Part shown: piece by piece, positions 1,562 through 12,871 of the stretch
Position numbering within the stretch: position 1 is the first letter of the stretch
How the letters are laid out: each line of letters opens with the position of its first letter
Assembly: GCF_030696805.1 (NCBI RefSeq)
Contig: NZ_JAUYRO010000115.1
Location: 1 to 32,709 of the forward strand
DNA: 32,709 nucleotides
Source of the DNA: Methyloversatilis sp.
GTDB lineage: Bacteria > Pseudomonadota > Gammaproteobacteria > Burkholderiales > Rhodocyclaceae
Direction: 5' to 3'
Program-made: the position numbers and the translations under genes
Notes under the pieces: model-generated
What the model was told of the DNA's origin: nothing
What the model saw: only the letters and a program-made list of their open reading frames with translations
The model's database searches: none

Positions 1562-3844
1562 TCAGGCGCGAACCCGTGACTTTTCCGGGTCGTAGTGCGA
1601 GAAACGTACCTGCCTGGCGCCGATGCGTTTCTGGTGACCGTCGAGCTTGCCGATTTCGACCGTGGCGCCGGGTTCGACGGCCGACACGTCGAGTCGCGCC
1701 AGCGCGATCGTCTTGCCGAGGATGGGCGAACGGGTCGTGCTGGTGATCTGGCCGATCTGTGCGCGACCGTTGTAGATCGGGTCGCCGTGCGCCACCAGCT
1801 CGCTGCCGTCGATGTCCAGCCCGACCATGACGCGGGCCGGGTGGGCCTTGCGGCGTTCGAGCGCGGCCTTGCCGACGTAGTCGTCCTCCTTGTCGGCCGC
1901 CACGGCAAAGCCGATGCCGGCTTCGAACGGATCGGTCTGGTCGCAGAAATCGTACTCGGCGAACATCAGCCCGGCTTCGATGCGCAGCATGTCGAGCGCG
2001 GCCAGACCCATCGGCGCGATGCCGTAGGGCTCGCCGGCGCGGGCCACCGCGTCCCACACCTGCACGGCGTGCTTCGGATGGCACCACACCTCGTAGCCCA
2101 GTTCGCCGGTGTAGCCGGTGCGCGACACGACGACCGGGCAGCCGTCGATCTTGCCGACCGAGAAGCGGAACCACTTCAGTTCGTCCATCGATGCCTGCGC
2201 CGGCGGCGTGACCACGATGTCGCGCAGGATGTCGCGCGACTTCGGCCCCTGCACCGACAGGTTGTGCAACTGGTCGGTGGATGAACGCACCCAGGCGCGC
2301 AGGCCGTGCTGCGCCGCCAGTTCGCGCAGCCACACGCCGCACCAGTCGTCGCCGCACACCAGGCGGAAGTTGTTCTGCGCCAGGCGGAACACGGTGCAGT
2401 CGTCGATCATGCCGCCGTGTTCATGGCACAGCGCGGCATAGACGATCTGACCGACTGCCAGCTTGCGGATGTTGCGCGTGGTGGCGCGCTGCAGCAGCGC
2501 TTCGGCGTCCGGGCCGGTGATTTCGAACTTGCGCAGCGCCGACAGATCGATCATCGCGGCGCGCTCGCGACAGGCCCAGTATTCGTCGATCGGGCCGTTG
2601 GCAGCGAACGAAGTCTGCAGCCAGAAGCCGCGGTACTCGACCATGTTGCGGGTGAGCGCGGACGTGCGGGCGTGGAAGCCGGATTCGCGCGTCAGTCTGG
2701 GGGTGGCGTCGGGCGTCATGCGGTGTGCGATCCCTTTGGAAAAGTTGTTCGAGGCGTCATACACCCGCACGTGGATGTCGGTCGGATACCAGCCATTGGC
2801 CGGATCGATGTCATCGGGGCAGGACGACGAGGCGCAGACCAGATCGGTCAGCGCGCGCATCAGCACGTAATCGCCGGCACGCGACCACGGCTCGTCGAGA
2901 CCGATGCTGTCGTCGTGATTGACGATGGTGTTGTAGAAGAAGTTGATCGCCGGCCAGCCGGCCCGGCGCGCCACGCCCAGCGGTTCGAGCGCGTTGTTGA
3001 AGTTGTCGCTGCAGTTGGCGTGACCGGGATAGCCCATGTCGTCGTAGTACTTGGCGCTGCAGGCGAGCATGAAGGTGTCGTGCCGGCCCACGGTATCGCG
3101 CACCACTTCGACCAGTGCCACCTGCCGCTCGTCGTAATACTTCGACAGCAGGCCGGGCCCCGGACTGGCGGTGCCGGTCAGCGTGCGCGTGGTGGTCGGA
3201 TCAAGGTCGTATTCCTGACCGCGCGCCAGCGCAGCCGCGTCGAAGGCGAGGAAGTCGGAGCACTGCCGGCCATCGACGTCGATCACCTGGATGTAGTCGC
3301 CCGCCTTCACGCGGTAGGCGTGCGCCGTGCCGGCTGCGACCCGCAGGTCGAGCACCGGTTCGGCCAGCGGCGGCGGCGCCTGACCGCTGAGCGGCTCGGC
3401 GCGGACGATGTCGGCGATCAGTTCGGTCGGCGCGTCCTGCGCGTCGGGCGCCATGTCGGTACCCGGCGCGTGCAGCAGGCAGCGCACGGCGCCCGGTGCG
3501 CTGAAGTCGCAGCGCGCGCCGGGCAGGCTGTCGGCGCCGAACAGGCGGGCGCGCAGCAGGCGCCAGCCGGCGGGCGCGCCGTGCATCAGCGCAGCGGCCG
3601 GTGTGTCGGCGGTATCGACCGCGTCGAGTGCCATGCCCGGCAGCATGGCGGCCGCGAGGCCGGCCGGCCCGGCGAGGTAGAAATCACCCGGCTGCAGGCC
3701 TTCCGGGTCGATCAGCGTAACCCGGTCGCCGGCTGCCAGATCGAACGCGACCGCTGCACCGCCGGACGCGACAAGACGGACGTGCGCCGGACGCGGACGG
3801 GCGGCGATCGACGGGTTGAAAGAAGGTTCGACTATCGTGTTCAT
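1562..3844 (-). CDS. tdm: DUF1989-GcvT fusion, probable trimethylamine-N-oxide demethylase
   Basis: This 760-residue protein has two halves. Residues about 20-385 are of the DUF1989 (urea-carboxylase-associated) type. They carry the family's conserved cysteines in HANCSDNFNNAL (Cys278) and VCASSSCPDD (Cys337, Cys342), the probable zinc site. Residues about 395-755 form a tetrahydrofolate-binding GcvT/aminomethyltransferase-type domain (SRTGYTGELGYEVWC, LRIEAGL, GQITSTTRSP). This architecture and length match the known Tdm enzymes, in which the zinc domain splits TMAO to dimethylamine and formaldehyde and the GcvT-like domain traps the formaldehyde on THF. It lies 112 bp downstream of tmm on the same strand, which makes and supplies the substrate. 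No strong ribosome-binding site precedes the ATG at 3842-3844. Related DUF1989-GcvT proteins of other specificity exist, so the substrate call rests partly on the neighbour. Confidence 0.85.
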   Translation of the reverse strand: MNTIVEPSFNPSIAARPRPAHVRLVASGGAAVAFDLAAGDRVTLIDPEGLQPGDFYLAGPAGLAAAMLPGMALDAVDTADTPAAALMHGAPAGWRLLRARLFGADSLPGARCDFSAPGAVRCLLHAPGTDMAPDAQDAPTELIADIVRAEPLSGQAPPPLAEPVLDLRVAAGTAHAYRVKAGDYIQVIDVDGRQCSDFLAFDAAALARGQEYDLDPTTTRTLTGTASPGPGLLSKYYDERQVALVEVVRDTVGRHDTFMLACSAKYYDDMGYPGHANCSDNFNNALEPLGVARRAGWPAINFFYNTIVNHDDSIGLDEPWSRAGDYVLMRALTDLVCASSSCPDDIDPANGWYPTDIHVRVYDASNNFSKGIAHRMTPDATPRLTRESGFHARTSALTRNMVEYRGFWLQTSFAANGPIDEYWACRERAAMIDLSALRKFEITGPDAEALLQRATTRNIRKLAVGQIVYAALCHEHGGMIDDCTVFRLAQNNFRLVCGDDWCGVWLRELAAQHGLRAWVRSSTDQLHNLSVQGPKSRDILRDIVVTPPAQASMDELKWFRFSVGKIDGCPVVVSRTGYTGELGYEVWCHPKHAVQVWDAVARAGEPYGIAPMGLAALDMLRIEAGLMFAEYDFCDQTDPFEAGIGFAVAADKEDDYVGKAALERRKAHPARVMVGLDIDGSELVAHGDPIYNGRAQIGQITSTTRSPILGKTIALARLDVSAVEPGATVEIGKLDGHQKRIGARQVRFSHYDPEKSRVRA

Positions 3845-3956: not shown

Positions 3957-5318
3957 TCAGGCGTGTTCCTGGTCGGCCGGTTCGTTCAGGTAGGCCTCGA
4001 GCGAATCATCGAGCGCTTCAAGCCACGTCGTATGGTGCGGCGTCGCCATGGTGCCGGTCATCAGGGAAGCGTAGCACTTGTTCCGGTAGCCCATGATGTC
4101 CTCGTACTTGTCGTTCTTCCACTCGAGGAAGGTCTTGTTGACCGCCGCGATATCGAAGCTCGGGTAGTCGGTGGCTTCGATCAGCTGGCCGATGTACTTG
4201 CCCTGGAACTCGAACATTTCCTGCGCCGTTTCCAGCGTCAGTTCCTCTTCGCGCCAGGCCATGTCTTCGGCATGCATGGCTTCCGGCGACGGCAGCGGGA
4301 TGCGGCCGAGCATGACGTCGCGTGCGTACCAGGCCTGGGCGTCGAACATGTTGAAGCTGTACCACTGGTCCTGCATGCCGAGATAGATCAGCGCCGGATT
4401 CTCTTCCCAGAACACGCCCTTGTAGAGGTTCAGCGGCCACAGGCGGTTGTCGGTCTTCAGCCGCAGCTCTTCCGGCAGGAAGGGGAAGTGGTGCTTGTAG
4501 CCGGTGCACAGGATGACCGCGTCGATGTGCTTGCTGCTGCCGTCGGCGAAATGCGCCATGTGGCCGTCGACGCGCAGCAACTGCGGCTTCTCGTCCCAGT
4601 TTTCGGGCCACTTGTAGCCCATCGGATTGGTGCGGTAACAGCTGGTGATGGAGCGCGCGCCGTACTTGTAGCACTGCGAGCCGATGTCCTCGGCCGAGTA
4701 GCTGGCGCCGATGATGAGCACGTCCTTGCCCTTGAATTCGAGCGCGTCGCGGAAGTCATGCGCATGCAGCACGCGGCCGCCGAAGGTTTCGAAGCCCGGA
4801 AAATACGGCACGTTGGGGGTCGAGAAGTGGCCGCTGGCCACCACCACGAAGTCGAAGGTTTCGGAGTAGGTGAGATCCTGCTCGTAGTTGTGCACGGTGA
4901 CCGTGAACAGCCGGGTCGCGTCGTCCCAGGTCACGTTGCGCACCGAGGTGTTGAAGCGGATGTGCTTGCGCACGCCGGCCTTCTCGACACGGCCCTTGAT
5001 GTAGTCCCACAGCACTTCGCGCGGCGGGTAGGAACCCATCGGACGGCCGAAGTGCTCGTCGAACGTGTAGTCGGCGAACTCCAGACATTCCTTCGGGCCG
5101 TTCGACCACAGATAGCGGTACATGCTGCCGTGCACCGGCTCGCCGTGCTCGTCCAGCCCGGTGCGCCAGGTGTAGTTCCACATGCCACCCCAGTCCGACT
5201 GCTTCTCGAAACACACCAGTTCGGGAATGTCTGCGCCCTTGGCCGCAGCAGACTGGAAGGCACGCAGCTGGGCCAGCCCGCTGGGGCCGGCACCGATGAT
5301 GGCAACACGCTTTTTCAT
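3957..5318 (-). CDS. tmm: Flavin-containing monooxygenase, probable trimethylamine monooxygenase
   Basis: This 453-residue protein has the full class B flavin monooxygenase signature. The FAD-binding GAGPSG is at residues 9-14. The FMO fingerprint FxGxxxHxxxF appears as [11 protein letters not shown] at 179-189. A second nucleotide-binding motif, [10 protein letters not shown], follows at about 202-211 for NADPH, and there is a late [10 protein letters not shown] segment. The length fits bacterial Tmm (about 450 residues), which uses NADPH and O2 to make TMAO from trimethylamine in the cytoplasm. The ATG is preceded by an AAGAGGAA ribosome-binding site about 8 nt upstream. Adjacency to tdm, the enzyme for the next step, strongly supports Tmm over a sulfide- or indole-oxidising FMO. 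The probable promoter and operator lie at 5447-5486. Confidence 0.88.
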
Positions 5319-5446
5319 GCTGTGGATTCCTCTTGTCAGTTCCGTTCGGGATACGGCTGCGACGGCGCCGCATGCGCCAGGTCGCCCGCCGGACGCCCGG
5401 CATCGCGCCGTACGTCAGGTGCAGCGAATGATGCGAAGCGCGACCG

Positions 5447-5486
5447 GTGCGGACAATTCTCAAGAGGAGTTACCCATTAGGGGGTA
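5447..5486 (-). promoter_or_regulatory. tmm-side promoter block with NarL-like 7-2-7 dyad
   Basis: On the plus strand TACCCATTAGGGGGTA spans 5471-5486. Read as heptamers this is TACCCAT, a TA spacer, then an inverted TACCCCC. The NarL heptamer consensus is TACYYMT, and NarL binds paired sites in a 7-2-7 arrangement. The first half fits fully; the second differs at one position. Eight nt nearer tmm is the 16-mer GTGCGGACAATTCTCA (5447-5462). The whole 40-nt block recurs in inverted orientation at 5825-5864 in front of the porin gene. It ends about 130 bp upstream of the tmm ATG. Which part is core promoter and which is operator cannot be settled by eye. Confidence 0.6.
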
Positions 5487-5571
5487 GGCGCCGGCACACA
5501 GCTCCATTGAGCTGTGCCGCGGAGGCGAATGGGCGCGCGAACCCGGCTGACGTTGCGTGATCAACGCGCCC

Positions 5572-5781
5572 ATCGCGGACAGGGTCCGCTCCTGCGAAGG
5601 GCCACACCGTCGCGGTTTTCGTAGGAGCCATCCCACGGTCGGCCCTGCATGGCCGACCGGCTCCACGGGCGGCGAGCCGTGCTCGCCGAAACCCCCGCTC
5701 CGCCCCCGCAGGCGATCCCCGTCTTCGAACACGTGATGGCGCATGAGCAACGCGCGCATCGCGGACAGGGTCCGCTCCTAC
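5572..5781 (-). repeat. Composite REP-like element, copy B (inverted relative to copy A)
   Basis: Read on the minus strand, this 210-bp stretch has the same order of parts as 1316-1537. There is a REP unit at each end (AGGAGCGGACCCTGTCCGCG type), the GGGGGTTTCGGCGAGCACGG block, and a central hairpin (GGTCGGCC-atgca-GGGCCGACC) with compensating base changes relative to copy A. It lies in the divergent region, between the two mirrored promoter blocks. Small ORFs in it are not credible genes. Confidence 0.8.
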
Positions 5782-5824
5782 GGCGGGCGAGCGGCGTCGG
5801 GAGTCTCTTGCTGCCGTCGTGCCT

Positions 5825-5864
5825 TACCCATTAGTGGGTAATCCCTTGTGAGAATTGTTCGCAC
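5825..5864 (+). promoter_or_regulatory. Porin-side promoter block with NarL-like 7-2-7 dyad
   Basis: TACCCATTAGTGGGTA at 5825-5840 is a near-perfect dyad (TTACCCA arms around TTAG) and reads as two NarL-type heptamers, TACCCAT and inverted TACCCAC, 2 bp apart. After exactly 8 nt comes TGAGAATTGTTCGCAC (5849-5864), which matches the tmm-side 16-mer at 15 of 16 positions on the opposite strand. That second element is itself a partial dyad (GTGAGAA-ttg-TTCGCAC). The block ends about 210 bp before the porin ATG, leaving a long leader (5865-6075) in which no gene or clear structure was seen. Confidence 0.6.
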
Positions 5865-6075
5865 GGCAGCGACGTTTCAATAATCGGTCCCACATCGAGA
5901 CCTCCGGACGCACTGGCGCGACCGGAGCGTTACCCCGCAGTGCACTCATTCCCGAGCATCAACGCATGGCCGCCGGCTTCCTGGCTGGCTGCCGTGACGC
6001 AAAACAGGCGGACGGCGTTGGGCCCGTCATCCGTCGTACAGATCGCCCGACAACCGTGGATCACAGGAGAGCACC

Positions 6076-6867
6076 ATGCATGAACGTATTCGTCACAAGA
6101 CCCTGAGCGCGCTGCTGCTGGGCCTGCTCGTCGCTCCGCTCGCCGCACAGGCGGAAGAGGCGCCGGCACCGTCGTACACGATCAGCGCCAACGTGGGCCT
6201 GTTCTCGCAGTACATCTTCCGCGGCATCAGCTACACGCAGGAAAAGCCGGCCGTACAGGGTGGCTTCGATCTGGCGCACGAAAGCGGGCTCTACCTCGGT
6301 GTTTGGGGGACCAATGTCAGCGATCTGGCGCTGTCGAACGCCACCGGCGAGATCGACGTGTATGGCGGCTATGCGAAGACGGTGGGCGACTTCCTGTTCG
6401 ACGTCGGCTTCCTGCAGTTCATCTTTCCGGGCGGCAAGTACGATCCGTCCGGTGAAAGCCTGAACACGCTGGAACTCAATGCCGCGGTGACCTGGAAGTT
6501 CATCCAGCTGAAATACTCCTACGCGGTGACCGATTACTTCGGGTTCAGCACGAAGGCGTTCGGCGCCGATTCGGACGGTTCGGACTATCTGGAAGCGAAC
6601 GCGAACTACGAGTTCATGGCGGGCTGGATCGCCAATCTGCACGTTGGTCACCAGAAGGTGAAGAATTATGACGACTACGACTTCACCGACTGGAAGGTCG
6701 GCATCACGAAGAACTTCGACGGTGGCTGGCAGGCAGCTGTGGCCTATGTCGACACCAATGCGGACAGTAACTTCTACACCATCTGCGACAACGTCGGCGG
6801 CGCGGCAACGCGCTGCAAGGACACCGGCGACAGCAAGTGGCTGCTGTACGTCAAGCGCACGTTCTGA
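6076..6867 (+). CDS. TorF-family putative outer-membrane porin
   Basis: This 263-residue protein begins with a clear signal peptide (hydrophobic SALLLGLLVAPLAAQA, cleavage probably after AQA at about residue 26). The mature part starts SYTISANVGLFSQYIFRGISYTQ, the hallmark of the conserved TorF/TIGR02001 family. It has alternating aromatic and polar beta-strand patterns, many Gly/Tyr/Asn residues, and a C-terminal Phe (YVKRTF) as in outer-membrane beta-barrels. AGGAGA at 6065-6070 places the ATG at 6076. It is followed 51 bp later by a permease gene, with a hairpin in between. The position beside tmm-tdm suggests outer-membrane passage of a small amine or N-oxide; that role is an inference. 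Confidence 0.8.
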   Translation: MHERIRHKTLSALLLGLLVAPLAAQAEEAPAPSYTISANVGLFSQYIFRGISYTQEKPAVQGGFDLAHESGLYLGVWGTNVSDLALSNATGEIDVYGGYAKTVGDFLFDVGFLQFIFPGGKYDPSGESLNTLELNAAVTWKFIQLKYSYAVTDYFGFSTKAFGADSDGSDYLEANANYEFMAGWIANLHVGHQKVKNYDDYDFTDWKVGITKNFDGGWQAAVAYVDTNADSNFYTICDNVGGAATRCKDTGDSKWLLYVKRTF

Positions 6868-6918: not shown

Positions 6919-8646
6919 ATGAGCAGCAATGCGGATGTGATCGGGGCGGCGCCGGTGCGGTCGGCCAGCCGTGCCGAAAGTGCGTCACTGCACCGGAAGA
7001 TCGACTGGACCGGTGCGTTCTGGGTGGCCAGCGGGGTGCCGGCGCTGGTGCTGTTTTCCATCGGTGCCATCGCGGCAACGGTGGGCAAACCGTCGTGGAT
7101 GGTGTGGGCGCTGTCGATCGGCTTCGGCTTCATCCAGGCCTTCACGTATGCCGAAATCGCCGGCCTGTTCCCGCACAAGTCGGGTGGCGCATCGGTGTAT
7201 GGCGCGGTCGCGTGGGTGCGCTACAGCAAGATCATTGCGCCGGTATCGGTGTGGTGCAACTGGTTCGCCTGGTCGCCGGTGCTGGCCATCGGCTCCGGGC
7301 TGGCAGCGGGTTACATCCTCGGCGCGCTGTTCCCGGCCGACGCGGCGATCAACACCTGGCAGCTGACGCTGGTCGATCTGGGTTTCATCAGGTCCGGCCT
7401 CGAGTTGCGCATCAACGCGACCTTCCTGGTCGGTGTCGTGCTGCTGCTGGCGGTGTTCGGCATCCAGCACGGTGGCATCCTGCGCTCGGCGCGCACGACC
7501 ATGGTGCTCGGCATCACGGCGCTGATCCCGCTGATGCTGATCGCGCTGGTGCCGCTGCTGTCCGGCGACATGCCGTCGGCCCACTTCTCGCCGATGGTGC
7601 CCATCGCGTGGGAAAACGGGCTGGTGGTCGATGGCTCGTGGAACATGGCGGGCGTCACACTGATGGCCGGCGGCCTGTTCATCGCCGCGTGGTCGACCTA
7701 CGGCTTCGAAACCGCGGTCTGCTACACGCGCGAATTCAAGGACCCCAAGAAGGACACCTTCAAGGCCATCCTGTTTTCGGGTCTGCTGTGTATCGTCGTG
7801 TTCACGCTGGTGCCGCTGGCCTTCCAGGGTCACCTCGGTCTGGGTGAAGTGGTCACGCCGCCGGTGGTCGAAGCGGATGGCACGGTGTCCGCACCGGCGG
7901 TCTACAGCGGCATGCTCGCACCGGCGGTCTACAGCGGCATGCTCGCACCCGAGGTGTACAGCGGCATGGGCGTGGCCAACGTGATGTCGCACATGGTGGG
8001 CGGCGGCGAAATGGTGGCAAACGTGCTGGTGGTCATGCTGGTGCTTGCGGTGCTGCTGTCCATCATGACGTCGATGGCGGGTTCGTCGCGCACGCTGTAT
8101 CAGGCGTCGGTCGACGGCTGGCTGCCGCGCTACCTGTCGCACGTCAACGAACATGGCGCACCGACGCGTGCGATGTGGACCGACCTCGGCTTCAACCTGA
8201 TCCTTCTGATGCTGTCGGACTACGTGTTCGTGCTGGCCTGCTCCAATGTCGGCTACATCATCTTCAACTTCCTGAACCTGAATTCCGGCTGGATCCACCG
8301 CATCGACCGCCCGGACTGGGAGCGTCCGTTCAAGGCACCGAACATCATTCTGGGTATCGGCGTGGTACTTGCCTTCGTCAATCTCGCGTTGATGGGTCTG
8401 GGTGCCGACATCTACGGCGCAGGCACGCTGACGGCCGGTCTGGTGTTCGCCTCGCTGATCATTCCGGTGTTCCTGTACCGCCATTACGTGCAGGACAAGG
8501 GTCAGTTCCCGGACGCGATGATCGAAGACATGCACCTGAATGACCAGTTGCCGTCAGGCGGCAAGCGCGCAGGGGTGCTGCCTTATGTGACGCTGGCTGC
8601 CGGTGTCGTGGTGGTGGTGGTGTCGCACAGCCTGGCCGTGTATTGA
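6919..8646 (+). CDS. APC-superfamily amino acid/amine permease
   Basis: This 575-residue integral membrane protein has about 12 hydrophobic helices. The first begins near residue 33 after a polar N-terminus. Typical APC segments include the helix-1 region (WVASGVPALVLFSIGAIAA), AEIAGLFPHKSGGASVYGAVAW, and the helix-6-like WSTYGFETAVCYTREFKDPKKD. An AAGGGGAT ribosome-binding site precedes the ATG. Between two membrane spans, at about residues 325-351, it has a nine-residue tandem repeat (APAVYSGML type, three units) not expected in the family. APC carriers import or exchange amino acids and amines by cation coupling. The context (TorF porin upstream, tmm-tdm divergent, NarX/L pair downstream) makes a methylated amine, or an amino acid made from it, a reasonable but untested substrate. 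Confidence 0.85.
   Translation: MSSNADVIGAAPVRSASRAESASLHRKIDWTGAFWVASGVPALVLFSIGAIAATVGKPSWMVWALSIGFGFIQAFTYAEIAGLFPHKSGGASVYGAVAWVRYSKIIAPVSVWCNWFAWSPVLAIGSGLAAGYILGALFPADAAINTWQLTLVDLGFIRSGLELRINATFLVGVVLLLAVFGIQHGGILRSARTTMVLGITALIPLMLIALVPLLSGDMPSAHFSPMVPIAWENGLVVDGSWNMAGVTLMAGGLFIAAWSTYGFETAVCYTREFKDPKKDTFKAILFSGLLCIVVFTLVPLAFQGHLGLGEVVTPPVVEADGTVSAPAVYSGMLAPAVYSGMLAPEVYSGMGVANVMSHMVGGGEMVANVLVVMLVLAVLLSIMTSMAGSSRTLYQASVDGWLPRYLSHVNEHGAPTRAMWTDLGFNLILLMLSDYVFVLACSNVGYIIFNFLNLNSGWIHRIDRPDWERPFKAPNIILGIGVVLAFVNLALMGLGADIYGAGTLTAGLVFASLIIPVFLYRHYVQDKGQFPDAMIEDMHLNDQLPSGGKRAGVLPYVTLAAGVVVVVVSHSLAVY
7891..7971 (+). repeat. 27-bp in-frame tandem repeat (three units) inside the permease gene
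   Basis: Units lie at 7891-7917, 7918-7944 and 7945-7971. The first two are identical over 27 bp (GCACCGGCGG...CATGCTC); the third has diverged (GCACCCGAGG...). They encode APAVYSGML, APAVYSGML and APEVYSGMG in a loop between membrane helices. Exact identity of the first two units points to recent duplication by slippage. Confidence 0.95.
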
Positions 8647-8755: not shown

Positions 8756-9406
8756 TCAGTCGTGGACCGCGGCCCGCCGGAACTGCGGGTTCTGCAGCGC
8801 CCACACGGCCGCCTCGAGGCGGCTTTTCATATTGAGCTTGCTGAGCACGTGCTTGATATGCACCTTCACCGTCGCATCGGAAATGCCGAGCACGCGCGCG
8901 ATTTCCTTGTTGCTGCGCCCATCCGACAGCAGGCCGAGAATTTCGCGCTCGCGTTCGGTCAGATCGGCGTGACTGGCGGCTGGCGGCGCGTTCAGCGCAT
9001 GGGCGAGCAAACCGGCGACACTGCCGTCGAGCACCACGGTGCCGGCCACCGACTGCTTGATACGCTGACACAGCTCCTCCGGCTCCATGTCCTTCAGCAG
9101 ATAGCCGTCGGCACCCGCCTTCATCGCATCCAGCACGTCGCGTTCGTCATCGGACACGGTCAGCATGACGCAGCGGCCGCGCAGGCCCGCCGCCTTGAGC
9201 CGGCGCAGCGTTTCGATGCCATTCACCGACTTCATGTTGAGGTCGATCAGGATCAGGTCGGGATCCGTCTCGGCGGCCAGCGCGATACCACTCACGCCGT
9301 CGCTGGCTTCGCCGGCCAGTTCGAGTTCGTCGTCGGCGCGCACCAGCTGTGCCACGCCCTTGCGGAACAGCGGATGATCGTCGATCAGCAGGATGCGTAT
9401 GCTCAT
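8756..9406 (-). CDS. NarL-like two-component response regulator
   Basis: This 216-residue protein has an N-terminal receiver domain, with acidic pair Asp9-Asp10, phosphoacceptor Asp55 in LILIDLNM, and a late conserved Lys in GADGYLLKDMEPEEL. A LuxR/NarL-type helix-turn-helix follows at about 147-210 (LTEREREILGLLSDGRSNKEIARVLGISDATVKVHIKHVLSKL). The phrases YLLKDMEPEEL, STVKVHxKH-like DNA-recognition helix and KSRLEAAVWALQ are strikingly like E. coli NarL. Its start overlaps the stop of the histidine kinase gene by 4 nt (ATGA), implying translational coupling. It could bind the NarL-like dyads at 5471-5486 and 5825-5840. Whether the signal is nitrate is unknown; no nitrate reductase genes are nearby. 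Confidence 0.88.
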   Translation of the reverse strand: MSIRILLIDDHPLFRKGVAQLVRADDELELAGEASDGVSGIALAAETDPDLILIDLNMKSVNGIETLRRLKAAGLRGRCVMLTVSDDERDVLDAMKAGADGYLLKDMEPEELCQRIKQSVAGTVVLDGSVAGLLAHALNAPPAASHADLTEREREILGLLSDGRSNKEIARVLGISDATVKVHIKHVLSKLNMKSRLEAAVWALQNPQFRRAAVHD

Positions 9407-11001
9407 GTCGTCACTTCGGAAAGTATGTCGGCCGGCAGCTTCTGCGGCGCAAAGGCCAGCTGCACCCGGGTGCCGCCACCCGGTCGGTGTACCACGGATA
9501 CCTCGCCACCGAGCGAGCTGGCGCGCTCGCGCATGATGGACAGGCCATAGTGGTTCGTCTCTGCATAGGGGTTGGTCAGGCCGCGGCCATCGTCATCCAC
9601 GATGGCGGTGAGCAGATGTCCGGGCCCGTAATGCATGCTGATCCAGACATGGTAAGCCCGCGCATGGCGCACCGTGTTCGACACCGCTTCGCGTATGACC
9701 TGCATGACGTGAAACTCCTCGTTCACGCCAAGCTGGCATCGGCCCAGATCGTGCACGAAACTGATGTCGAGACCGCTGCGCTGGGCGAACTCATCGACCG
9801 TGGCCTGCACCGACGACAGCAGGCCGCCCGGACCCATGCGCACGCGGAAGGCGGCGATCAGGTCACGCACCTCGCGGTAAGCGGCCGACAGCCCCTCGCG
9901 CAGTTCGCGCGCGGCCTGCGCGACATCGGCCGGGTGCTTTTCGCGATCGAGACCGCGCTGCAGCCGGGCCACCTGGATCTTCATGTAGGCGAGCGACTGC
10001 GCCAGCGAATCGTGCAGTTCGCCAGCGATCGCCGTGCGTTCCTCCATCAGTGCCACCCGCCTTTCCTCCTGGCTGCGGCTCACGCCGGACAACGCGAGTG
10101 CGGCGAGATGAGCGAAGCTTTCGGCCAGCTTGACCTGCGGGTCATCGACCCGCGCATGCTCGGGAAATTCGGCCACCAGCGTGCCGAGCGCCAGATCGCC
10201 GCGGCACACCGGCAGCACCAGCGAACTGGTCGGCCCGGTTACGCCCGGCGGCACCACGCGCGCGGTGATTTCGCGCGCCGCCGGCTGATCGGCCAGCTGA
10301 GCCAGAATGGCCGGCTCGCCATGGGTCGCCAGTACGGCGTCGGCACCCAGTGCCTGCCGCGCGACCATGCCCAGGCTGAGCGACACGGTGCGCGCGCCGA
10401 GCGCAGATTCCAGCTGGGCGAGGCCGCCGAGCAGGCTGAACGCCGACACTTCGCTGTTGGTGAAGGTGCGCGCCACCTGATGCAGCGTCTGCAGTTCCAG
10501 TGCCTTGCGCCGCAACTGTTCGGCCGTGACCTGCTGGCGCCAGCTCACTTCTGCCTCCAGCCCGGCCTGGCGCGCCGTCAGTTCGGCCAGGCTTTCGACC
10601 AGCCGTTCGATTTCGTCGCGCCCGCGCGCGCGGCTGCTTTCCGGCATCAGGCTCAATGCGGCCTCGCTGCGGCACACGAGCAGTCGATACGCCCGGTGCG
10701 CGATGAGCGTGCAACCAACGATGATGGCAAGCAGGCACAACCCCTGCAGCAGCAGCATCACGGCCACCCGTTCCAGCAATGCACGCTCGACGCCGGCCAC
10801 CACCTCGCACGGCGCCCCTTCGGCCGCCGCAGGCGCCGCACACAGTGCGACCATGCGGCCGAAAATCTGCGAAAACTGCCGCTCCACTTCGACACTGCCC
10901 CAGAAAGCCAGCGCTGCGCACAGCGCGCAGCCGGCCAGCATGACCGTCAATCCGGTATACAGCGGGTAACGCCTGCCGGCGCCTGAAAGGAAACGAATCA
11001 C
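9403..11001 (-). CDS. NarX-like membrane sensor histidine kinase
   Basis: With a GTG start at 10999-11001 (CAGGG about 6 nt upstream) the protein has 532 residues; an ATG at 11062-11064 would add 21 but would run further into the divergent gene. Two membrane helices (about residues 15-35 and 79-101) enclose a short periplasmic loop of about 43 residues with two cysteines. A linker and GAF-like region follow. The HisKA_3 domain has its phosphorylated His at about residue 330 (MEERTAIAGELHDSLAQSLAYMK), then a HATPase domain (EAVSNTVRHARA, DDDGRGL, HYGLSIMRERASSLGG). The kinase core is NarX/NarQ-like. The periplasmic sensor, however, is much shorter than NarX and has no recognisable nitrate P-box, so the ligand is unclear. 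It is followed by the overlapping response regulator gene. Confidence 0.85.
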   Translation of the reverse strand: MIRFLSGAGRRYPLYTGLTVMLAGCALCAALAFWGSVEVERQFSQIFGRMVALCAAPAAAEGAPCEVVAGVERALLERVAVMLLLQGLCLLAIIVGCTLIAHRAYRLLVCRSEAALSLMPESSRARGRDEIERLVESLAELTARQAGLEAEVSWRQQVTAEQLRRKALELQTLHQVARTFTNSEVSAFSLLGGLAQLESALGARTVSLSLGMVARQALGADAVLATHGEPAILAQLADQPAAREITARVVPPGVTGPTSSLVLPVCRGDLALGTLVAEFPEHARVDDPQVKLAESFAHLAALALSGVSRSQEERRVALMEERTAIAGELHDSLAQSLAYMKIQVARLQRGLDREKHPADVAQAARELREGLSAAYREVRDLIAAFRVRMGPGGLLSSVQATVDEFAQRSGLDISFVHDLGRCQLGVNEEFHVMQVIREAVSNTVRHARAYHVWISMHYGPGHLLTAIVDDDGRGLTNPYAETNHYGLSIMRERASSLGGEVSVVHRPGGGTRVQLAFAPQKLPADILSEVTT

Positions 11002-11002
11002 G

Positions 11003-12871
11003 ATGGCCCTGTATCTGTTTTCCGCATGGACGCTCGCCCTGATGTTTGCGGCCGTGGTCGGCACCTGGCACGGCGGCCACGCGGCCTACGGCCTGCCTGC
11101 CGCGGTCGGACTGGGCGGACTGCTGCTGGTGCTGATGTTGCGGCGACAGACATGGTCCGACGCGCCACTTCGCCGGCGCCCCGACGCCACTGCACAACAG
11201 ACGCAGTGGGCGGGTGAACTGTGCCACAACATTTCATCGCCCTCGGTCACGATAGAAGGGCCGACCATCAGTTTCGCCAACCAGGCATTTCTCGCGTTGC
11301 TCGACTACCGCGGGCGCGCCGACGAGGTGGTCGGGCTGCCGTTCACCAATCTGCTGCATCCGGTCGATCATGCCCGCTTCGCTGCGCTGGTCGCGATCGC
11401 CGCCGGCAGCAATCCGACGGCGGCCGAAAGCATGCTGCGCATGGTCAGCGCCACCGGTCTGCCGGTGAAGCTGCACGCCAGCATTTCGCCACTGCCGGCG
11501 GTCCCGGGCAGCCTGCTGATCCAGTTCAGCCCGGATGCCGCCGCCGTGCCGGCGCGCGACGACAGCGAACATGACATGCCGGTGGTGCTGGACCAGATTG
11601 ATCTGGTGCTGTTCAAGACCGATACCGAAGGCCGCATCGCCTACCTGAATCGCGCCTGGGAGCGGCTGACCGGGCGCAGCGTTGCCGACAGCCGCGGGCG
11701 GCTGCTGAGCGCAGCCGTGCACCCGGAGGAGCGCGACGGGGTGGAAAAATCGCTGCTGTCGGTGGCCAGCGGGCAGCTCGACCAACTGGTGAGCGAGGTG
11801 CGTCTGGTCGCCGCCAGCGGCAACGTGTTCTGGGTCATGCTGCGTGCACAGTCGTGCACCCTGCCCGACGGCGATCTGGCCGGCGTGGTCGGTACGCTGA
11901 CCGAGGTCACGCGCCGGCGCCGCAGCGAAGAGCTCGGCTCGAGCCGACGCTACCTGAACACCCTGCTCGCCAATGTGCCGGGCATGGTGTATCGCGGCCG
12001 CAACGATCCGGACTGGACGATGGAGTTCGTCAGCGACGGCTGCGTCGACCTGACCGGCTACGAGCCCTGGGAACTGGTCGACAACCGCCGCGTGGCCTTC
12101 GGAAACCTGATTCACCCGGAAGACCGCGAATTCGTGTGGTCTCAGGTTCAGGCCAATCTGGCGCAGCACAAGCCGTATCAGATTTCCTACCGCATCGCGG
12201 ATGTCAATGGCGTCTATCTGTGGGTGTGGGAACAGGGGCGCGGCGTCTTCTCGTCGCAGGGCGAATTGCTGGTGATCGAAGGCTTCATCACCGACGTGAG
12301 CGAGCGGCGCGGCGCCGAGGAACGCGCCCGTCGACGCATGTGGTTCGAAGCCCGAACCGGCATGACCAGCCGGCCCATCTTCGACGCGCTGCTGGCGTGG
12401 ACGCTGCATCAGTTCCAGGTCAGCGGCGCCCCGTTCGCGCTGCTGTGGGTCGATGTATTCGGCATGGAAGAACTGGTGCCGCACTACAGTCAGGAAGTGT
12501 CCGAACAGGTGCTGGCCGAGGTGGCGCGGCGTTTCCGTCCGGTCAGCTATCCGGGCGCCGCGGTCAGCTATCTGGAAAAGCATCAGTTCGCGGTGCTGCT
12601 GACCGACTTCAGGGCCGGCCAGGCCGCGCGCGAACTGGCTGGCTCCAACGAACTGATTCCGGCGGTATCTAAACTCGCGGCCCGCCTGATGCAGGAACTG
12701 ACCGCGACGCTGCGCGTGGGCGACAGCGAGGTGGTGATCGCCGCGGCAGCCGGCATCGCGCTGGGCGACGCGCGCTACATCGGCATCGAATCGATGTTCG
12801 AAGCCGCGCGCCGCGCCGCGACCCAGGCGGTCGAGCTGGGTTCCGGGCACTGCGAGTTCGCCGACGAGTAG
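11003..12871 (+). CDS. Membrane PAS-domain protein with degenerate GGDEF domain
   Basis: This 622-residue protein starts with two hydrophobic helices (about residues 3-22 and 30-47). At least two and probably three PAS domains follow: a weak one at about 75-180, one at about 195-305 (FKTDTEGRIAYLNRAWERLTGRS), and a PAS_3-type one at about 315-435 with a PAC motif (LWVWEQGRGVFSSQGELLVIEGFITDVSERR). The last 180 residues have the fold pattern of a GGDEF domain, but the active-site loop reads EKHQF at 525-529 where GG(D/E)EF is expected. It is therefore unlikely to make cyclic di-GMP and may act as a sensor or partner-binding protein. AAAGGAAAC is a weak ribosome-binding site about 10 nt upstream. 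The start lies 1 nt from the proposed start of the divergent kinase gene, so the two probably share a control region that lies within coding DNA. Confidence 0.8.
   Translation: MALYLFSAWTLALMFAAVVGTWHGGHAAYGLPAAVGLGGLLLVLMLRRQTWSDAPLRRRPDATAQQTQWAGELCHNISSPSVTIEGPTISFANQAFLALLDYRGRADEVVGLPFTNLLHPVDHARFAALVAIAAGSNPTAAESMLRMVSATGLPVKLHASISPLPAVPGSLLIQFSPDAAAVPARDDSEHDMPVVLDQIDLVLFKTDTEGRIAYLNRAWERLTGRSVADSRGRLLSAAVHPEERDGVEKSLLSVASGQLDQLVSEVRLVAASGNVFWVMLRAQSCTLPDGDLAGVVGTLTEVTRRRRSEELGSSRRYLNTLLANVPGMVYRGRNDPDWTMEFVSDGCVDLTGYEPWELVDNRRVAFGNLIHPEDREFVWSQVQANLAQHKPYQISYRIADVNGVYLWVWEQGRGVFSSQGELLVIEGFITDVSERRGAEERARRRMWFEARTGMTSRPIFDALLAWTLHQFQVSGAPFALLWVDVFGMEELVPHYSQEVSEQVLAEVARRFRPVSYPGAAVSYLEKHQFAVLLTDFRAGQAARELAGSNELIPAVSKLAARLMQELTATLRVGDSEVVIAAAAGIALGDARYIGIESMFEAARRAATQAVELGSGHCEFADE

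Follow-up and report, generated by a model that had tools for sequence, protein, structure and literature searches.

A promoter element with three half-sites is the likely control unit of a methylated-amine regulon in Methyloversatilis

Introduction

Does a single regulator switch on both the oxidation and the transport of methylated amines in Methyloversatilis? The question was raised by a 32,709-nt stretch of Methyloversatilis sp. DNA, analyzed here in full and referred to as the window, in which two mirror-image blocks lie between the tmm-tdm genes and a divergent pair of porin and permease genes. The original prediction, made from the letters of this DNA, held that a NarL-like regulator encoded close by could act on both blocks and thereby control oxidation and transport jointly.

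Marine dissolved organic nitrogen includes a notable share of methylated amines, and regulators of their oxidation have been described from Ruegeria (available text of PMC13390433). There, the AraC-type TmaR activates tdm and downstream genes and mildly represses tmm, TmoR represses tmm, and TmaR homologues occur in Alpha- and Gammaproteobacteria (same source). Within the genus, an expression study of M. universalis FAM5 compared methanol with methylamine, and the terms trimethylamine, dimethylamine and two-component are absent from it (PMC5023235). No two-component system for methylated-amine oxidation was recognized in the open literature among the matches listed, as judged by titles and the starts of abstracts.

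Results

Genes and promoter blocks of the window

The genes of interest were assigned with profile models. The cut-offs given for tmm, tdm and the permease are equivalog cut-offs and that for the porin is a subfamily cut-off.

1562 to 3844, minus strand: tdm, TMAO demethylase (NF053776, 1237.8 bits, cut-off 1100)
3957 to 5318, minus strand: tmm, trimethylamine monooxygenase (NF058570, 836.4 bits, cut-off 675)
6076 to 6867, plus strand: TorF-family putative porin (TIGR02001, 166.2 bits, cut-off 47.15)
6919 to 8646, plus strand: TMAO permease (NF053774, 858.7 bits, cut-off 690)
8756 to 9406, minus strand: NarL-like response regulator, the proposed binder of the blocks (NF007935, 277.8 bits, NarL equivalog cut-off 250)
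9403 to 11064, minus strand: NarX-like histidine kinase without the nitrate sensor (GAF, HisKA_3 and HATPase_c domains); the true start is perhaps a GTG at 11001
11003 to 12871, plus strand: PAS protein with a degenerate GGDEF domain, the third member of a conserved trio

Domain scans of the window genes from tdm to an alpha/beta hydrolase gene detected no AraC-type or TmoR regulator. The kinase and PAS/GGDEF genes are divergent and their starts overlap or abut (region 10995-11064, with the PAS ATG at 11003 and the possible kinase GTG at 11001). Judging from alignments, this overlap seems to recur in other Betaproteobacteria, and the promoters of the two genes may therefore lie inside each other's genes.

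The two promoters to which the blocks are assigned consist of the following parts.

5428 to 5433, minus strand: putative -10 hexamer CATCAT of the tmm promoter, 17 nt from TTGTCC, at a position conserved in the genus
5447 to 5486, minus strand: tmm-tdm promoter block (dyad 5471-5486, third half-site 5465-5472, -35 region with TTGTCC 5451-5456)
5825 to 5864, plus strand: porin-permease promoter block (dyad 5825-5840, third half-site 5839-5846, -35 region TTGTTC 5855-5860)
5879 to 5884, plus strand: putative -10 hexamer AATAAT of the porin-permease promoter, 18 nt from TTGTTC

Both 40-nt blocks were recovered where they had been placed, in opposite orientation and each directed toward its own gene, and the earlier count of 32 identical positions out of 40 proved exact. 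When the 757-bp spacer was dinucleotide-shuffled 200 times, the top-scoring inverted pair of 40-mers never exceeded 27 of 40 (mean 24.0). The start of the dyad lies 168 nt from the tmm start codon in one block and 251 nt from the porin start codon in the other. The dyads read TACCCCCTAATGGGTA (5447-5486 block, minus strand) and TACCCATTAGTGGGTA (5825-5864 block, plus strand), followed by the 8-nt sequences ACTCCTCT and ATCCCTTG, respectively, and then by TGAGAATTGTNCGCAC in both blocks. The proposed layout of an inverted heptamer pair, 8 nt and TGAGAATTGTNCGCAC was therefore upheld, but the 8 nt are no neutral spacer, as a conserved third half-site lies within them. Also located between the blocks is a 55-nt direct repeat (5548-5602 and 5734-5788, 84% identity) with GGACAGGGTCCGCTCC, which looks like a dispersed intergenic repeat.

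Anatomy of the element

The inner structure of the element was examined in an alignment of 27 sites across genera, selected from pattern matches and from reading of upstream regions, several of them from one genome. The TA at either end of the dyad was invariant, the third half-site (TA[AC]NCC) overlapped the last TA of the dyad with block positions 17, 19, 20 and 22 conserved at 1.0-1.5 bits, and within ATTG the AT was invariant, the second T was present in 26/27 sites and the G in 23/27, part of this conservation being built in by search patterns that fix some of these letters and with which most sites were found. The -10 region, on the other hand, was in no search pattern. A -10-like hexamer (AATAAT, CATCAT or CAGAAT) was found behind all 23 genus sites examined, 17-18 nt from the TTG-starting hexamer of ATTG. 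Across the 27 sites the mean best -10 match was 3.56 of 6 compared with 2.14 in shuffles, none of 1000 shuffles scoring as high; spacings of 16-19 were allowed and 17 or 18 was always best.

Genus sites thus display features beyond the dyad, 8 nt and TGAGAATTGT, namely the -10-like hexamer and the third half-site. In Methyloversatilis the element consists of a 16-nt TACYC..GRGTA dyad, the overlapping third half-site, RATTG and a -10-like box 17-18 nt on. Since cross-genus conservation falls on RATTG, which keeps a fixed spacing to a -10-like box, TGAGAATTGTNCGCAC most plausibly represents a -35 region, and with the -10 at its usual distance we infer that the dyad is centered near -58. A Fur-, CRP- or FNR-type site in TGAGAATTGTNCGCAC was considered by eye against the consensus sequences and rejected on the same grounds.

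Distribution in the genome, the genus and the family

The dyad alone carried no genome-wide signal: at up to 3 mismatches it matched 7 places in its own genome, 4 of which were the two blocks read both ways, compared with 28 matches for the reversed pattern. It was rejected as a signal in its own right, being no commoner than the reversed control. The dyad together with RATTG, unlike the dyad alone, was distinctive. When the genome and its relatives were scanned for the dyad plus downstream sequence, as the original prediction had proposed, the full element turned up 36 times, spread over 11 of the 13 genus genomes, and not once in the 382 other genomes sampled from the family; the reversed pattern had no match in any genome scanned.

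Three copies are present in the genome of the window, before tmm, before the porin gene and, on another contig (C58:159-192), 115 nt before dmmD in a dimethylamine monooxygenase operon. This operon comprises, in order, a GcvT-like gene, a DmmA/reductase fusion and an oxidative N-demethylase subunit gene, and it is the GcvT-like gene that we take to be dmmD. The window itself holds no further element, the next non-overlapping place reaching 1.2 bits with the cross-genus matrix described below, and autoregulation of the kinase and PAS genes through the element was rejected for want of an additional site in the window.

Among the other genomes of the genus, G005 has no tdm match over the cut-off and carries the element before dmmD and before a TMADH-like gene, which is of the OYE type and reaches no equivalog cut-off. 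We presume this gene to encode a trimethylamine dehydrogenase. In G001, G003 and G010 (L084, L093, L094, L132), a universal stress protein gene next to a PilT/PilU-family gene has a variant of the element in front of it. Separately, a copy in G004 (C1:517990; L066 9491-9524) has a -10-like AATAAT and no obvious gene behind it, and possibly belongs to a small RNA or a decayed promoter. Of the 13 genus genomes, 10 have both sites and regulator and 2 have neither, a correlation that is confounded because these two also have no tdm match over the cut-off.

The element beyond the genus

If the element serves tmm, sites should be conserved upstream of this gene in relatives, and this was observed in the genus and, in looser form, in other Betaproteobacteria. 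In other Betaproteobacteria, such forms were found ahead of tmm, dmmD, TMADH-like, permease or porin genes, and in Methylophaga they stand ahead of dmmD. For example, the tmm/dmmD spacer of Derxia gummosa contains two mirrored blocks, and blocks are again mirrored in a divergent spacer of a metagenome-assembled genome (MAG L152). A loose core pattern gave 19 matches in 835 kb of loci compared with 1 in the reversed sequence; these fall at 16 distinct places, three being repeats of the same places in a second locus (L069, L070), and two have no dyad (L165, L168). Within 59 named loci (L149-L207), 11 of 19 core matches are followed at 77-148 nt by a tmm, dmmD, TMADH-like, permease or porin gene. 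The other 8, most of which have no dyad, do not precede such genes: seven have no dyad or no such gene, and at L149 a full dyad stands before a gene of no assigned identity. Upstream regions were also read by eye, and a dyad was seen in 11 of 29 regions from 15 loci. Among these are TACTCCCAAGGGAGTACGCCATCAAGAGAATT-like sites before dmmD in four Methylophaga loci, and no clear site was seen by eye in the upstream regions of Methylophaga permease genes, Aquabacterium genes and Azohydromonas genes.

A wider scan covered 37 hand-chosen genomes, 17 with a kinase match (including G078 and G104) and 20 without a kinase among the matches listed. It returned 14 sites in 8 of the 17 kinase-bearing genomes and none in the 20 others (Fisher p 0.0006, on genomes chosen by hand), and all 14 sites stood directly before a methylated-amine gene. 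The reversed pattern gave 2 matches, both in the group without a listed kinase. Six of the 8 site-bearing genomes are also among the named loci, so that the two scans overlap. Of the 17 kinase genomes, all but G714 were checked for methylated-amine genes near the kinase, and three (G475, G772 and G147) have none there; the fixed pattern found no match in G148, G144, G190, G078 and G104 despite the presence of kinase and methylated-amine genes on one contig. The fixed cross-genus pattern also misses the Methylophaga-type form (dyad, then GAATTT) and the permease promoters of the Zoogloea clade. In the latter (L071 4240-4325 and L072 1930-1990), TACTCC half-sites, about 13 nt apart in L071, are repeated in one direction before RATTG, a different arrangement accompanied by a more distant regulator and seen in these two loci only.

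A matrix was built from 20 sites of other genera, selected from pattern matches and upstream reading with several from one genome. It scored the window blocks at 39.0 bits (5825-5864) and 36.2 bits (5447-5486), compared with 10.4 bits for the best of 20 shuffles; it holds no Methyloversatilis site and is not fully independent, most other-genus sites having first been found with patterns derived from the window blocks.

The blocks could, in principle, be copies of a spread or duplicated repeat rather than a regulatory element, as the spacer between them does hold repeats, including the 55-nt direct repeat. We hold this to be extremely improbable: in its own genome the full element stands before methylated-amine genes only and at no unrelated place, all 14 sites of the wider scan stand before such genes too, and the length of the intervening DNA differs among members of the genus.

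The regulator and its site

The consensus of the NarL heptamer is TACYYMT, and the dyad had been likened to the 7-2-7 form of NarL sites. This likeness was borne out at heptamer positions 1-6, which fit in most of the 27 sites; position 7 is C in 14 sites and T in only 6. The regulator encoded near the blocks proved NarL-like as well, scoring above the NarL equivalog cut-off (see the gene list). Its recognition helix, TVKVHIKHVL, compares with TVKVHVKHML in the solved NarL structure 1a04, and TVKVH.K is kept in the linked regulators listed, that is, those associated with methylated-amine genes.

In a tree of 67 regulators out of 76, from which five identical copies and four distant sequences had been removed, the regulators beside 12 PilJ-type kinases form a group apart (91/80). 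Those labeled as linked fall into two groups, one of them recovered in just 10% of bootstrap trees, and a single origin of the linked regulators would thus lack tree support; the label was given by clade and covers contigs with no visible methylated-amine gene. A regulator from a genome titled Martelella alba (L194) groups tightly with Sodalis in this tree, and the genome is possibly misnamed.

The kinase and its sensor

While the C-terminus of the window kinase is NarX/NarQ-like, the sensor part is different. The NarX model aligns only from position 198 and the NarQ model from 325, and the domain scan found neither a PilJ nor a HAMP domain in this kinase. These two domains were present in 0/5 linked compared with 5/5 unlinked kinases scanned. 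Similarly, the P-box of nitrate-sensing kinases (described in the available text of PMC8199190) was found in 0/7 and 0/29 linked kinases and in 10/12 PilJ-type NarX relatives unlinked to methylated-amine genes; the larger test took 29 of 32 linked kinases (L150, L159 and L192, whose reading frames are broken or truncated, were dropped) together with 12 of the 37 unlinked kinases. The P-box was likewise found in 0/25 of the remaining unlinked kinases, comprising 19 from Methyloversatilis or the Zoogloea clade, which lie on contigs where no methylated-amine gene was seen, and six distant ones. Its absence from these 25 means that lack of the P-box marks clades, not linkage alone. In most betaproteobacterial kinases the two predicted membrane helices are separated by a short loop, and 6/7 aligned sequences show a cysteine pair; in four Methylophaga kinases together with L265 and L266 the loop spans about 105-120 residues by a simple hydropathy scan.

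These data bear on whether the system is an ordinary nitrate switch, in which NarX/NarL would adjust methylated-amine oxidation to nitrate. The regulator does pass the NarL equivalog cut-off, and E. coli NarL acts on TMAO respiration (PMC8199190 and PMC2718512, in the text available). Set against this, the window kinase has no PilJ or HAMP domain, the P-box is confined to the unlinked NarX relatives in the comparison above, the regulators beside those 12 relatives form their own tree group, and the three sites of the genome all serve methylated-amine genes. We give nitrate control very little credence. As the kinase has no nitrate P-box, the pair is probably a methylated-amine switch.

Linkage of the regulatory genes to methylated-amine genes

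A total of 74 loci (65 and nine others) were examined. Methylated-amine genes lie near the kinase in 32, and all 32 also have the PAS gene; the PAS gene is present in 15 of 37 other loci with a kinase match, and five loci gave no kinase match. In 29 of the 65 loci a kinase match is located no more than 10 kb from methylated-amine genes; the scan that yielded these loci relied on two short peptide patterns and is not exhaustive. Regulator, kinase and PAS protein thus form a conserved trio that accompanies these genes in Beta- and Gammaproteobacteria. The PAS protein has a GGDEF domain without the GGDEF letters and is for this reason probably not a cyclase.

The trio is not always adjacent. The regulator lies at least 95 kb from the cluster in five relatives (G001, G002, G004, G005 and G010), and G003, which carries the catabolic genes and four sites, lacks both kinase and regulator. 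The left flank, where the trio lies in G001, is followed in G003 by a transposase gene and a gene for a PQQ-dehydrogenase; the right flank is on a separate contig. The PQQ-dehydrogenase gene by the left flank (L262, G003 C65) has low third-position GC and stands with an integrase-core transposase gene. Given sites without the pair in this genome, another protein may serve them, the loss may be recent, or the assembly may have a gap.

The first of these options corresponds to a general alternative, namely that the blocks bind another regulator, whose gene lies elsewhere, and that the NarL-like pair is near by for another reason. Besides G003 and the five relatives with a distant pair, it draws on Ruegeria, where the genes for trimethylamine use are run by the unrelated TmaR (AraC-type) and TmoR (PMC13390433, available text). 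Nevertheless, the dyad is of the NarL heptamer form, the NarL recognition helix is kept and the trio accompanies these genes in two classes of Proteobacteria, and we regard a different regulator as unlikely. Two candidates were rejected individually: the acetate regulator CrbR, as the motif differs by eye from the ACTU sequences in Table 4 of PMC5715377 (available text), and RpuR, whose site is a direct repeat (PMC9100948, available text).

Discussion

The element, its targets, its conservation and its linkage to three regulatory genes are established at the level of sequence, and the element is most likely a promoter-activator unit through which the NarL-like regulator controls a methylated-amine regulon. 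The proposal that the nearby regulator could control oxidation and transport together survives the computational tests of site conservation, site form, recognition helix and linkage. To the earlier reading of this DNA we add dmmD as a target, the third half-site, the -35/-10 reading, the different kinase sensor and the spread to other families.

We consider it quite probable that both blocks are sigma70-type promoters with a NarL-like activator site, through which an amine-triggered pair switches tmm-tdm, porin-permease and dmmD. Each block would be a sigma70-type promoter with one activator site for the regulator encoded at 8756-9406. The kinase, of NarX/NarQ descent with a different sensor, would phosphorylate this regulator when a methylated amine or its product is present, and the divergently encoded PAS protein probably acts together with the kinase. 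The phosphorylated dimer would then bind the 7-2-7 dyad centered near -58, aided by the third half-site nearer the promoter, and recruit RNA polymerase to a weak TTGNNN-17/18-NANAAT promoter. As a result, tmm-tdm, the porin and TMAO permease genes and, through the third site, the dmmD operon would be turned on together. In this scheme we infer the binding of the regulator to the element, activation as the direction of control, the -58 position and the inducer.

Comparison with described systems helps to separate what is familiar from what is new. As in E. coli NarX/NarL, a regulator of the NarL equivalog with the same recognition helix is paired with a TACYYMT-type 7-2-7 site upstream of a sigma70-type promoter. 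In contrast to that system, the kinase described here has a different sensor and no P-box, the regulon concerns amine catabolism, and the dyad, near -58 by our placement, is accompanied by a third overlapping half-site. E. coli NarL dyads work at -44.5, -67.5 and -77.5 (ogt promoter) and just upstream of the -35 element at yeaR (PMC7419079, available text). The Ruegeria pomeroyi TmaR/TmoR system similarly has tmm, tdm and dmm genes under control, whereas the present system has a two-component pair, with a single type of site ahead of each operon. Pseudomonas CrbS/CrbR shares a LuxR-type response regulator, an imperfect inverted repeat just upstream of an RpoD promoter and a catabolic regulon, but ACTU sequences such as TACTACCATCGTCGAAT are a different motif and the CrbS kinase is an SLC5 symporter fusion (PMC5715377, available text). 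The NarL-type site and regulator are of a known kind, the sensor is different, and the regulon and the half-site arrangement are new.

With somewhat less assurance, we favor a broader view in which a nitrate-type two-component system was retooled into methylated-amine sensing, its sensor replaced and a PAS/degenerate-GGDEF partner added. Such a system would be shared by Betaproteobacteria and some Gammaproteobacteria and would act through a three-half-site element conserved in form across pathway enzymes, be they Tmm-Tdm or TMADH-like. A family of nitrate sensors would then have acquired a new signal, and the switch would offer a candidate part for a trimethylamine-responsive biosensor. The predicted kinase, regulator, site and target list make the control of trimethylamine and dimethylamine use testable in Betaproteobacteria and Methylophaga.
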